From: Sanghuangporus weigelae
Taxonomy: Eukaryota; Basidiomycota; Agaricomycetes; Hymenochaetales; Hymenochaetaceae
Direction: 5' to 3'
Length of the DNA: 64,000 nucleotides
NCBI GenBank assembly: GCA_033182465.1
Contig: CP137320.1
Coordinates: forward strand, 1,922,001 to 1,986,000
The notes beneath the pieces are model-generated. The model saw only the letters and a program-made list of their open reading frames with translations. It ran no database searches and was not told the DNA's origin. Made by a program: the position numbers and the translations under genes. Below are positions 36,132 to 43,721 of this stretch, in pieces; the stretch's first letter is position 1, and each line of letters opens with the position of its first letter.

Positions 36132-36524
36132 CCGAACTTGAATGGGTATATGCGTGGAGGTCGTAAATCATGAAGTCATGAGTGAGGAACAAGCTCGAAA
36201 GTGACAACGAAAGCTATTGCACAGAAAGCAGCAAAGAATGGAGTAATTGATGTAGAGAAGCACAACAAGGTTGGCTCGGAAGTTATGTGTCCGAGTCGAC
36301 CTCCAGTGTGCTGGATAGGGGCCAGCACGAGAGAGAGTCTAGCTCGGCATGTCCTTCCTATTTTAGAAGACTCTCGGGATCGGCTGAATTTCGACACGTG
36401 ACCCAGCCATCGTCCTGGGCTCTCCAGTCTCTTTCTAGTCTACCTTCACCCACTTCTGACTCCAGGTCGACTCCTTGATCACCATTCAGATGTCTTTCAG
36501 GAACCATTTTTGGCGACGCTTGTG
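36132..36524. promoter_or_regulatory. Divergent promoter, membrane protein / ATG15
   Basis: This 393 bp region lies between two divergent start codons and must carry both promoters. I see no clear known factor site and no gene. Confidence 0.5.
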
Positions 36525-37951
36525 ATGTTTTGGAATTCTGTTATCTGGTTTTTTTCTATCCCGGTCAGCATTTGGTTTCACTTCTTACCATCAGGGACGT
36601 ATCAAGCGGCGCATTCGGAACGACCGCGAACTCTCGCATTTCACCTCGAGGGAGGCCGTGCATCCCATCTACAGGAAGATGGTATTGGTTTTGTCAATCA
36701 GGCCTCTCTGGTCCCAGATGGGCGTCCGACTGTAACTGTAAAGACGCGTCCGACGTCTGTATACAGACCGTGCTCTATTGATGCTTTCATGGATGCGCGA
36801 TTCAGTCTTGGGGACGTTAATATCGAGTGGGATGCAGTTGATGTTGAAGGACCGGATATAGAAGACAGACATACACTTCAACAACTTGCAATGATGTCAG
36901 GAAATGCGTACTCACTGCCTGGTCAAAAGAGTTGGTATGATCTTGATGGAGCGTGGAACGAAGTGAGTTATTATGCAACTCACAAATGAATAAGCTTTTT
37001 TATGATACAGTCTCTTCCGATTGGATGGGAAGACACCACTAATGGCTTCCGAGGGCATGTCTTCGTCTCATCGGACAATTCCACAGTCATTCTGTCGATC
37101 AAGGGAACTACTCTGCAGGGGCCGACATCAAAGAAAGATAAATTCAATGATAATCTACTTTTCTCGTGTTGCTGCGCTCGCGTCGATATTTCTTGGATGT
37201 TCAGCACCGTGTGTGATTGCTTCTCTAAACAGTGGAGATGCGACAATACGTGCCTCTCGAAAGCATTGGTAGAAGAGAGTCTATTCTATTCAATTGGAGT
37301 TGTGAGTTGGACAATTTCTCCTTGCTTCTTACCCGATTTATCATGCGACTGCTATAATAGAATCTATACAATAATTTGACGAGTATGTATCCTTCAGCAA
37401 ACATTTGGCTCACCGGTCACTCTCTGGGAGGCGCTTTAGCTGCGCTACTAGGAGCAACCTTTGGTGTCCCTTCAGTGGCCTTCGAATCTCCCGGCGAGCT
37501 GCTCGCAGCAACACGCCTACATCTGCCTCTCCCTCCGCGATCTCCTATCACGCACGTATACAATAACGCAGATCCAATCCCACAAGGCGCTTGCACTGGC
37601 TTCGGAAGCGTCTGTGCGCAGTCCGGCTTTGCTCTTGAGACTAAATGCCACTTAGGACAGAAGATTGTGTATGATACGATGGGAGCATACGGTTGGCGAG
37701 CTTCAGACGTGACGAAGCACACTATTCGCGAAGTTGTAACTGTGGTTCTTGCGGATGAACGAGAGTGGGAGCCTGGAAGACATGTGCCGCTTGCTGTCGA
37801 CGAAGAACCCGACTGTCTGGTAAGTAGTCTCGGTCTTTGATTATGAGTGTATTCTTAACAGAAGCTTTAGGCTTCGGAGTGTTACAAATGGGAGTTTGGA
37901 AATTTCAAGAACAAGAATGTATCATTTCAACCAGCTCTAGGACCTTCATAA
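36525..37951 (+). CDS. ATG15: Autophagy lipase Atg15 (class 3 lipase)
   Basis: Atg15 is a vacuolar phospholipase that breaks up autophagic bodies. The ATG at 36525 opens an N-terminal signal-anchor (MFWNSVIWFFSIPVSIWFHF). Introns after WNE, after YSIGV and after DCL give a continuous protein. It has SLPIGWE, the RGHVFVS and VILSIKGT strands, and the Cys-rich DISWMFSTVCDCFSKQW with CDNTCLSKAL. The nucleophile elbow is IWLTGHSLGGALAALLGATF, the acid NNADPIPQG and the likely histidine TKHTIREVV. It ends CYKWEFGNFKNKNVSF. The catalytic Ser-Asp-His set is complete. The last third of this gene is copied at 39181-39456 (see the repeat entries). Confidence 0.93.
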
Positions 37952-38807
37952 GTAATCTGCAACTTTGTGCCTTTACATCTCAAGCATTTGAATGTATTAA
38001 CTACCTACGCATCTCCTAGCTGTGCATCCGACTGCGGATGAACATGCTTCTCCCAGATGCATTTACCCTGTACGAAGACTTTTTGAATGTTCCTATCATC
38101 GCCACCGAAGAAGAACCGCTCAAGCCTAGTGTCAAGTGTTTTGCTGCTTGCCACAGCTTCGTCGTAGTCATCACTGGCAAGTTTGTCCCCGCCTCTCGAG
38201 AATTCGTCGCGCGGACTCCAGATCGCCGGATTACCGGTCTCGGGACGTACACTGACAATCAGCGCGTCGAAGCCCTTGCCCTTCACAAACGAGCCGATCT
38301 TGTCCTCCATACAGCATAGACTTGCGCCGCCGAGAGTCGCAAGATAAAGCAGCGTAGATATTTTAAGTGGCTTTCCCGCGAAAGTTTTATCCGAGGGATC
38401 GTCCAAATCTTTACTCTGAAGTGCGACCATCTTAGAGCATATGGAGGCATGTTGGATAGCCGTGATCATGGACGGTGAGAAGCCGCCCGAAACATCTGTT
38501 CCAAGTCCGACCTGGTGATTTTGTTGCATTAGTTCCATTCCCTGGGTATATCTACATGGAACGTGAGTGAAAAACACCTTTATGCCTCTGTCCAAGATCT
38601 CGCCAACCTTAGCCATACCACTCGTAAGATTGAAGTTGCTCGTCGGACAGCGACTGACTCCCGAGTTGCTCTCCTTTATCATCTCGAGATCGAGGTCATT
38701 CAGATACACTCCATGCCCCAGTATTGTCCTCTCTTTTAGAAGTCCGAAGTGACCGTAGACATCCGCATACGATTTCCGCTTCGGGAACAAAGACGTCGTC
38801 TCTTCAT
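37678..38807. repeat. Segmental duplication, copy 1 (ATG15 3' end plus deaminase 3' end)
   Basis: This 1.13 kb unit matches 39181-40305 in direct orientation. It runs from inside the last large ATG15 exon, across the convergent gene boundary, into the middle of a guanine deaminase gene. Homology starts at gatgggagcatacgg and stops at cgtctcttcat. The flanks differ by roughly 9-13% by eye, while 38160-38409 is identical to 39662-39911. Confidence 0.95.
38005..38807 (-). pseudogene. Truncated guanine deaminase copy (3' part only)
   Basis: The minus strand codes the last 250 or so residues of a guanine deaminase nearly identical to the gene at 39510-41399, with the same intron and the same end (DAQLGDA). 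Homology stops at 38807, so the N-terminal half with the HxH metal site is missing, and no start region replaces it. Inside the part kept, the motif SHCPTSN has become SRCPTSN, losing a histidine conserved in the active site of the family, and ILAHGVYL has become ILGHGVYL. The remaining frame is still open, so decay is recent or slowed by gene conversion. I judge it non-functional. Confidence 0.88.
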
Positions 38808-39180
38808 GAGGTGTTATTCAATCGTGACTGCGAATTCTACGAGATGGAGAGCTTTGTGATTGTTATGAGCTGGCACAAAAAAGATTAAGCTAAACAAGAA
38901 TGTTGTTCATGACTTCCGGCCTTTGTTATCCCTTTCATAAAGGAAATCACCAATTGCTAGTATAAAGAGCCTTTGGAAAATTCTTCTAGCCCACGGCGAG
39001 GGTCGAACTCGCAGCCTTCAGATTTTTGCGCACCGCACAAATTCATAAGAGTCTGACGCTCTATCCGATTGAGCTACGCGGGCCTTTTCGATCTTTTGAA
39101 CCACCACCATCCTGGTGAAAAACATCTACCAAAAACGGCAAATCGCGGTAGACCGACGAAGATCGACCTCCTCCGTCACT
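38808..39180. other. Non-duplicated filler at the duplication junction
   Basis: These 373 bp lie between the end of copy 1 and the start of copy 2 and match neither. They hold the tRNA-Lys gene and otherwise unremarkable AT-rich DNA. A simple tandem duplication would have joined the two copies directly, so this segment was probably added at the break. Confidence 0.7.
38988..39083 (-). tRNA. tRNA-Lys (anticodon CUU) with an intron
   Basis: On the minus strand the sequence folds as a full cloverleaf. The 7-bp acceptor stem pairs GCCCGCG with CGTGGGC, the D stem GCTC with GAGC, the anticodon stem TCAGA with TCTGA, and the T stem GCGAG with CTCGC around TTCGACC. The anticodon loop begins CTCTTA, giving CTT at positions 34-36 (Lys). 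An intron of about 22 nt follows base 37 at the canonical place. A TTTT tract lies about 8 bp past the 3' end as a Pol III stop. The CCA end is not encoded, as expected in eukaryotes. Confidence 0.95.
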
Positions 39181-39456
39181 GATGGGAGCATACGGTTGGC
39201 GAGCTTCAGACGTGACGAAGCATACTATTCGCGAAGTTGTAACCGTAGTTCTTACGGATGAGCGAGAGTGGGAACCCGGAAGACATGTGCCGCTCGCTGT
39301 CAACGAAGATCTCGATTGACTGGTAAGTAGTTCCGGTCTTTGATTATAGGTGTATTCTGAACAGGATCATATTTAGGCTTCGGAGTGTTACAAATGGGAG
39401 TTTGGAAATTTCAAGAACAAGAATGTATCATTTCAACCAGCTCTAGACCTTCATAA
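39181..39456 (+). pseudogene. Orphan 3' fragment of ATG15
   Basis: This piece matches the end of ATG15 from MGAYGWRASDVTKH through the last intron to CYKWEFGNFKNKN. It lacks the lipase domain and any start region. By comparison with ATG15 it reads EDLD followed by a stop where ATG15 reads EEPDCL, and a base is missing near the end (ctctagacc against ctctaggacc). It is a by-product of the segmental duplication and not a gene. Confidence 0.92.
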
Positions 39457-40305
39457 GTAATCTGCAACTGTGTACCTTTACATCTCAAGCATTTGAATGT
39501 ATTAACTACCTACGCATCTCCTAGCTGTGCATCTGAGTGCGGATGAACATGCTTTCCCCCGATGCATTTACCCTGTACGAAGACTTTTTGAATGTTCCTA
39601 TCATCGCCACCGAAGAAGAATCGCTCAAGCCTAGTGTCAAGTGTTTTGCTCGCCACAGCTCCGTCGTAGTCATCACTGGCAAGTTTGTCCCCGCCTCTCG
39701 AGAATTCGTCGCGCGGACTCCAGATCGCCGGATTACCGGTCTCGGGACGTACACTGACAATCAGCGCGTCGAAGCCCTTGCCCTTCACAAACGAGCCGAT
39801 CTTGTCCTCCATACAGCATAGACTTGCGCCGCCGAGAGTCGCAAGATAAAGCAGCGTAGATATTTTAAGTGGCTTTCCCGCGAAAGTTTTATCCGAGGGA
39901 TCGTCCAAATCCCTACCCTGGAGTGCGACCATCTTAGAGCATATGGAGGCATGTTGGATAGCCGTAATCATGGACGGTGAGAAGCCGCCCGAAACATCTG
40001 TTCCAAGGCCGATCTGATGATTCCATTGGGTCAGTTCTATTCTTCAGGCATATGCATACGGGATTTGAAAATTACCTTTATGCCTCGGTCCAGAATCTCG
40101 CCAACCTTCGCCATACCACTCGTAAGATTGAAGTTACTCGTCGGACAGTGGCTGACTCCTGAATTGTTCTCCTTGATTATCACGAGATCGAGATCGTTCA
40201 GATACACTCCGTGCGCCAAGATTGTCCTCTCGTTCAGAAGTCCAAAATGATCATAAACGTCCGCATACGATGTCCTCTTCGGGAACAAAGACATCGTCTC
40301 TTCAT
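39181..40305. repeat. Segmental duplication, copy 2
   Basis: This is the direct-repeat partner of 37678-38807. Its left part is an orphan fragment of ATG15, and its right part is the 3' half of the intact guanine deaminase at 39510-41399. Confidence 0.95.
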
Positions 40306-41760: not shown

Positions 41761-43561
41761 TCAATTCTTCAGTGAACCACGCAGAGCCACCCCACCAATA
41801 CATTTCCCTTGAACGAATACCTTCAATATATTTCTATCATCTCCGCCAAAAAGGAACCGCTCGAGCAAGGCGTCTAATCTCTTCTTCGCCTCCTCTTCAG
41901 TCTGATTTCTAGTATCCGAAAACTCGCCTGGCATGGACCAGATTGCTGGATTACCCGTTTCAGGGCGTACGCTCACGATGAGAGCGTCGAAACTCTTGCC
42001 GGGAGCGATCGAACCGATTTTGTTCTCCATACAACAGAGGGAGGCGCCACCTAAAGTTGCGAGATAGAGTAGTGTTGCGATTGGGAGTTGTTTGCCCGCG
42101 AAACGTGAACTCTTCGTCGGTAATGATGGTTTCCCCGCAGTTTGCAATGCGACCATCTTGGAGCACATTGAGGCGTGTTGGATGGCTGTGACTATTGAAG
42201 GAGAGAATCCACCTGATACATCCGAGCCGAGCCCAACCTGCAAGAGACTCGTCAGCTCGCCATCATCAAGGAAGACAGGTGTCGTTCACCTTAATCCCTC
42301 TATCGAGCATCTCCCCGATATTCGCCATCCCACTTCGTAAATTAAAGTTGCTCGTCGGACAATGACTTATCCCGGCACCAGTCTTCTTCACCAAATCTAG
42401 TTCGTGATCATGCAAGTGCACGGCATGGGCTAAGATCGATCTTTCACATAAAAGACCATGTTGCTCGTATACGTCCGCATATGACTTGCACTCCTTGAAC
42501 AAGTCCTTCGTAAAAACAATTTCACCCTTATTTTCCGCTATGTGTGTTTGTATGGCTAACGTCTTATCTGACTTGGCCATGTCCCCGAGCCCGCGGAGGA
42601 GATCACTTGTGCAGCTGATAGCGAATCGAGGCGTCAGGACCGGATAGATCAAGTCGGAATTTAATGAACGGATGTAGGCTATTAGTTCTTTTGTGGACTT
42701 CAGCGAGTCTTCAGCTGAAGGTTCCCGGTAGTGGTCTGGACAATTTCGATCCATGTTGCATTTCTGGATTTGACGTCAGTATTTGACTCGCGAACGATGC
42801 GCATAGTAACTCACTCCGACTAACGCACGCTGGCCTAAAAGATAAATATGAATACGGTAATGCAGATATTGAGAAATGATGACTTACCGAACTTCAAGAT
42901 AATGTCGGCCAGAACTTTCGTCGATTCTAGATGGAGCGTTCCATAATAGCAACACGTAGTTGTCTAGACATCAACAATAATTAAAAGATAATTATAACTA
43001 TGAACCTGGCCAACTCACACCAAGAGCGATGAATCGCCGAACGACCTCCGGATAGATCATTTTTGCAACCTCGACGTCTCGGAATCGGGACTCCATCGGA
43101 AATGTGACGTTTTCGAGCCAGTCGAGGAGTTCATATTGTTGTCCACTGCAAAGTTTATTGGTTGGTTCACCAAAATGACAAACAGGAATGAATCCGAGAA
43201 TCGAACCTTCCCATGTTGGGGACCTGCGGTGCATGCTGATAACAGCTAGTGGTCAGTGTTCAAGAATGAATTATCGCGGAGTAAAACATACCGTGTGTGT
43301 ATCGACAAACCCTGGTAAGATGAACTCCCCGTCTCGCAATTCAGTTATGAAAACATGGACGTCTTCACCAGAGGATGCTTTGAGCTCAGAAAGTCTTTGG
43401 TCTATTGTCTTCTGGACGTCACACGAGTCCACGTCCTGTTCAATCCACGCTATGTTTCCCGATAGATCAATGGCAAGGAGTGCTCTCGGAAGGACATCAT
43501 ACTCCGTAAGACTCTGAGGATTTATTATCGCGCCGTAGAATATGGAGATTGTCGACGACAT
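41761..43561 (-). CDS. Guanine deaminase, copy B
   Basis: This is a tandem paralogue of copy A with the same exon plan and clear but older divergence. The start at 43561 reads MSSTISIFYGAIINPQSLTE. Next are ILPGFVDTHT / HAPQVPNMG (HxH site), YELLDWLENVTFPMESRFRD, VTTCCYYGTLHLESTKVLAD, CNMDRNCPDHY, QTHIAENKGE and ERSILAHAVHLHDHELDLVK. GAGISHCPTSNFNLRSGMAN, GLGSDVSGGFSPSIVTAIQH and RPETGNPAIWSMPGEF follow, and it ends LRGSLKN. The 29-nt exon (43207-43235) and 20-nt exon (42815-42834) match those of copy A, so the intron pattern predates the duplication. It is divergent from GPI10 over 160 bp. Substrate preference may differ from copy A. Confidence 0.9.
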
Positions 43562-43721
43562 GATGAAGCTAAAGCGAAAGTAAGCTGCCGCGCTGAAGGA
43601 GCATGGACCATGACTGTATTTCACCGAGCAGTACGAAGATAAGATAACCAAGTAGGTCCTGTGCCGTGCCTTGGATTTCTTGTCCTCGTCGATCAATCAT
43701 GATCAACCTCACGCTTCTTGC

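Follow-up and report, generated by a model that had tools for sequence, protein, structure and literature searches.

Ectopic (interlocus) gene conversion of tandem duplicates leaves direct repeats with mosaic identity and an abruptly homogenized core. The same pattern is found in the stretch of Sanghuangporus weigelae DNA analysed here (64,000 nucleotides of contig CP137320.1, positions 1,922,001 to 1,986,000; hereafter, the window), with the difference that the putative tract runs across the 3′ ends of a convergent gene pair and joins an apparently working deaminase to its truncated counterpart. Segmental duplications that arise by replication in budding yeast (MMIR) often have their breakpoints at tRNA genes and short homologies, with microhomologies of 5 to 10 bases (PMC2518615). 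Compared with that account, the window carries a tRNA segment as an insert at the scar, has no more than 3 bases in common at one edge, and gives indications of more than one step. A further likeness is offered by the Helenus TRIM retrotransposons, whose tRNA-like LTRs are likewise short segments with tRNA sequence scattered through a fungal genome (PMC10886601); unlike these elements, the cassette reported below lacks an abutting 5-base target duplication and has one other match only. Literature searches for tRNA-flank mutation and for gene conversion in truncated tandem duplicates retrieved nothing.

Direct repeats across a convergent gene boundary

When the whole window was compared with itself by BLASTN (E up to 1e-8), two direct repeats emerged with 91.4% identity over 1134 columns (E = 0) and with exactly the unit coordinates of the original prediction. 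The remaining off-diagonal matches in the window were only those of deaminase parts to an older paralogue (41938-42694; 66.5% and 65.7%). The features of the locus are as follows, with gene models built solely on open frames and splice signals.

about 36525 to 37951, plus strand: ATG15-like lipase gene that looks intact and has a GHSLGG motif (exons open in a three-frame translation, from which start and splice sites were deduced)
37678 to 38807, no strand: repeat copy 1, with the ATG15 3′ end and the deaminase 3′ half (self-alignment)
38005 to 38807, minus strand: headless guanine deaminase, last two exons only (open frames, PDB match)
38160 to 38409, no strand: core of the putative conversion tract, 250 aligned bases with zero mismatch
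38805 to 39084, minus strand: cassette of 280 bp that combines a tRNA gene with some 180 bp of its 3′ flank (match to C1:3243100-3243401)
38988 to 39083, minus strand: tRNA gene with intron (Rfam, 56.5 bits)
39085 to 39177, no strand: 93-base filler that separates the ATG15 tail from the 5′ end of the tRNA gene
39181 to 40305, no strand: repeat copy 2, with the ATG15 tail and the deaminase 3′ half (self-alignment)
39182 to 39460, plus strand: orphan ATG15 tail, with a single in-frame TGA and, compared with the intact copy, a 1-base indel close to its end
39510 to about 41501, minus strand: complete-looking, multi-exon guanine deaminase GDA2 (open frames, Pfam, PDB)
41761 to 43696, minus strand: GDA3, an older tandem paralogue used as outgroup (open frames, self-BLASTN)

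Open frames and alignment thus agree with the predicted order of ATG15, headless deaminase, ATG15 tail, and intact deaminase, and the open frames leave one intact-looking copy each of ATG15 and the deaminase, as had been claimed. The two adjacent head-to-tail copies make this a tandem (segmental) duplication, in which a 373-base spacer separates the copies. There is no direct copy-to-copy junction, because the tRNA cassette and the 93-base filler intervene. Breakpoints that had been announced as readable to the base can consequently be read in this way for the edges of surviving homology only, since the copies never join directly.

The name ATG15 for the lipase gene is our assumption from sequence features. 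Exon 37376-37840 matched Pfam Lipase_3 (lipase class 3; E 4.3e-7), exon 36510-36989 gave no Pfam match, and the search of an ATG15 exon against NCBIfam was negative. Elsewhere in the genome, the ATG15-like exon matched only the tail copy and three exon pieces, 47-70% identical by exon, of a second, diverged ATG15-like gene on contig C7 (about 658264-658860). For the deaminase sequence, Pfam returned an amidohydrolase match; the PDB top match of both the GDA2 middle exon and the headless copy was the yeast guanine deaminase. The best NCBIfam match of the deaminase exons was also guanine deaminase, with scores below the curated whole-protein cut-offs, as expected of fragments. The first exon of GDA2, in which DTHT can be read by eye, had no family or structure match in Pfam, NCBIfam, or PDB. 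GDA3 shares 60% protein identity with GDA2 over the middle exon, and the presence of this third tandem deaminase suggests that the deaminases duplicated at least two times at this locus.

The headless copy consists of a frame open for 261 codons, including an old intron that by our own reading occupies 38512-38577 (66 bases) and is itself open in frame, and its sole coding indel relative to GDA2 is of 3 bases. The first in-frame ATG is codon 42 past the break, and only 4 codons separate the break from a stop on its upstream side. Furthermore, the SHCP of GDA2, GDA3, and the yeast enzyme is SRCP in this copy. We take SHCP and the N-terminal HxH zinc motif to be active-site features of guanine deaminase; the headless copy has neither, since its N-terminal half is absent. 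The missing half, the late ATG, the upstream stop, and the replacement of H by R make the headless deaminase very probably inactive. Similarity searches in this genome found no remnant of the missing deaminase head and none of a second ATG15 body.

A tRNA cassette in the spacer

The spacer (38808-39180, 373 bp) contains a tRNA gene within a segment shared with contig C1, neither of which appeared in the original prediction. The cassette aligns to C1:3243100-3243401 with 85% identity (258/303 columns), and the edges of this alignment are abrupt: the left one coincides with the deaminase break and the right one with the 5′ end of the tRNA gene. We read the anticodon as CUU (CTT), which would make it a tRNA-Lys; ARAGORN gave no assignment. 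The window tRNA is identical to the C1 copy at 97/98 bases. A genome search with the tRNA hit 4 places, including itself, whereas its 3′ flank alone hit the window and C1 only, i.e., one other match. On contig C1 (L009:5100-5200), the roughly 100 bases that precede the C1 tRNA gene contain two more short sequences that look like copies of the tRNA 5′ end (ACGCGGGC).

At its left edge the cassette shares 3 bases (CAT), and its right edge borders the 93-base filler. The best word common to both edges (within 15 bases) is 4 bases long and is not adjacent to the right edge. The target-site duplication of a retroposed tRNA element (SINE or Helenus) is therefore lacking, and with a single further match in the genome the interpretation of the cassette as a SINE or LTR element is not supported. 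A filler query (39075-39195) had no second match in its own genome, and local alignments of the filler to eight targets on both strands (16 tests, 100 shuffles each) produced shuffle-like scores. The best target was a deaminase-like locus on contig C9, whose score was reached by 3/100 shuffles and is not significant over the 16 tests.

Fifty-seven tRNA loci of the genome, i.e., 56 matches (63 of 1042 first-look candidates scored) and one from the tRNA search, were compared all against all, counting alignments of 60 bases or more with E up to 1e-5. Among these 57 loci, the C3/C1 Lys pair was the only one with a single >150-base alignment covering the tRNA outside a 12-locus family, and general copying of tRNA genes with their flanks in this genome is not supported.

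The same comparison revealed a 209-base repeat with tRNA-like sequence at 12 of the 57 loci: L039 (1477-1685), L018, L027, L038, L041, L042, L049, L050, L052, L057, L058, and L059. Identical 5-base direct repeats flank seven of its nine copies of 207-209 bases (all except L018 and L038). The flanks comprise five distinct pairs, and L039, L049, and L050 have the same one. The repeat resembles the solo LTRs of Helenus TRIM elements (PMC10886601), and it inflates the tRNA count of the genome. L049 and L050 (C3:1368000-1376000) are located on segments in inverted orientation that surround the tRNA-like repeat and match at 99.8% over 1847 bases. Two further pairs, L024/L061 and L048/L056, have 470 and 451 columns in common (75% and 78%) near but excluding the tRNA and may represent further repeats.

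Mosaic identity and constraint in the repeat copies

Identity is distributed very unevenly along the repeats, a feature absent from the original prediction. In successive 50-base steps, the ATG15 part has 1, 6, 7, 6, and then 0 substitutions, and the stretch at the gene boundary has 1 to 4 per step. Four successive steps (38180-38379) have none, after which the counts are 4, 1, and 8, followed by 16, 4, 7, 8, and 10 across the old intron and on into the exon upstream of it. Outside the identical core, divergence amounts to up to 14% on the ATG15 side and 20% or more on the deaminase side. When the 89 substitutions were shuffled over the 1122 aligned positions, none of 20000 permutations reached the 250-base run (longest shuffled run, mean 60, maximum 167). 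Constraint was rejected as its cause, because synonymous sites in the exon holding the core are free to vary, being saturated relative to GDA3. A tract homogenized beyond chance and not by constraint is what characterizes ectopic gene conversion, and conversion between the copies is the simplest explanation of their mosaic identity.

The deaminase exon adjoining the junction (exon A, 75 codons) carries 21 synonymous and 9 amino-acid differences between the copies (dS 0.61, dN 0.053; dN/dS about 0.09). The original prediction had envisaged a young event, which this dS does not fit outside the conversion tract. Polarized by GDA3, three of the amino-acid changes fall on the headless copy, three on the intact one, and three are unresolved. 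The synonymous changes, at sites that are saturated, split into eight headless, seven intact, and six unresolved. The headless copy accordingly has no excess of amino-acid changes in exon A. A copy dead from birth would be expected to accumulate about 1.7-1.9 amino-acid changes per synonymous one under an equal-rate model, under which 9 or fewer amino-acid changes of 30 have a P of 0.00007-0.0002. Given this dS and dN/dS in the shared exon, the headless copy appears to have evolved like a working gene, and the sequence comparison argues that both deaminase copies were long under constraint, the headless one being gene-like for much of its history. Its present retention as a functional truncated protein is nevertheless very improbable: the long open frame across the old intron, the lone 3-base coding indel, and the low dN/dS would fit, but the protein would have to do without its N-terminal half, with R in the SHCP motif, without a near in-frame ATG, and behind an upstream stop, while a longer full-length past accounts for the constraint.

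The 3′ flank of the tRNA is a record of the age of the cassette only if it evolves neutrally. Its distance to the C1 copy (0.15; 0.151) is lower than that between the deaminase introns (0.54, from strings that include one exon base; Fisher P 0.0006) and lower than the divergence at exon A synonymous sites (Fisher P 3e-5). Exon A and the deaminase intron have 3 to 4 times the divergence of the flank, although factors besides age may set the rates of flank and intron apart and the numbers of sites are small. Divergence is lower on the ATG15 side (dS 0.28, intron 0.155) than on the deaminase side; neither the ATG15 synonymous sites (P 0.19) nor the ATG15 intron (P 1.0) differ significantly from the flank. 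The ATG15 tail has eight synonymous versus five other changes, one of which is the stop. These counts have P 0.06-0.08 under a dead-from-birth model and so are compatible with a fragment that never worked, whereas for two constrained ATG15 copies five or more such changes have P 0.02, 0.18, and 0.61 at assumed dN/dS values of 0.05, 0.1, and 0.2, respectively. On this basis, a block with no more of ATG15 than its 3′ end, together with the whole deaminase, would suffice for the duplication; ATG15 may already have been cut in the original unit, and homogenization of the ATG15 side may date from about the time of cassette arrival.

The original prediction was right in placing a duplication across the convergent 3′ ends of ATG15 and the deaminase, but its single tandem event with breakpoints inside both genes is not the best reading, considering the tRNA cassette at the junction, the dS of 0.61, and the dN/dS of about 0.09. 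One partial duplication that acquired the tRNA filler at once, with conversion afterwards, predicts the same gene order and accommodates the near-equal divergence of the ATG15 intron and the tRNA flank, as well as the nonsignificant result at ATG15 synonymous sites. It is unlikely all the same, since it leaves aside the 3- to 4-fold higher divergence of exon A and its intron and the constraint on a headless copy with no surplus of amino-acid changes. Unequal exchange between diverged haplotypes, or with an introgressed chromosome, would have produced synonymous-biased divergence at once, with divergence and constraint predating the duplication, and some basidiomycete populations are very diverse. 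Against this improbable origin, a dS of 0.61 is high for alleles, and the 250-base identical tract would still require conversion. Finally, an assembly artefact merging two haplotypes is so unlikely that we give it hardly any weight: the assembly comprises 13 contigs (33.9 Mb), the other ATG15-like exon matches are three diverged exon pieces on C7, and the artefact would have to combine such a dS with a junction at a specific tRNA segment common to C1.

A probable stepwise history of the duplicated deaminase

Starting from the repeat, the cassette, the mosaic identity, and the constraint on the shared exon, the reading that best fits the sequences, to which we assign a probability of roughly 60%, is an older tandem duplication, ectopic conversion, and then truncation with a tRNA cassette at the scar. 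In the first step, a block with at least the ATG15 3′ end and the whole deaminase would have been duplicated in tandem, so that two working deaminases existed side by side. The direct repeats would then have undergone ectopic gene conversion, which overwrote their middle on both sides of the ATG15/deaminase 3′ boundary. One or a few later rearrangements would have deleted the 5′ part of the left deaminase, together with any further ATG15 sequence of copy 2, leaving as a scar a tRNA-Lys gene copy with its 3′ flank, related to the C1 locus, plus the 93 filler bases. At present, the left deaminase and the ATG15 tail would be decaying next to an intact-looking ATG15 and right deaminase.

We infer this order of events and a template switch of replication type at the scar; with 3 shared bases, as against the 5-10 reported in yeast, the switch is not put forward as a result. 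The cassette may have been copied from C1 to C3 or in the opposite direction. A more specific version, which we consider possible but less likely than not, is that one replication accident beheaded a working tandem deaminase and pasted in the C1 tRNA-Lys with its 3′ flank, so that a new working tRNA gene was made and its neighbour killed, while conversion still ties the live gene to the dead copy.

The locus is ordinary genome evolution with an unusually clear record, a well-preserved case of a known process. It would serve as a warning that one partial duplication is not the only possible source of direct repeats whose outer genes are intact and that the identity of the whole unit alone misdates the event. 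Read in this stepwise manner, it is a compact record of the death of a tandem duplicate, in which conversion keeps part of the copy fresh and a rearrangement with a tRNA scar truncates it.
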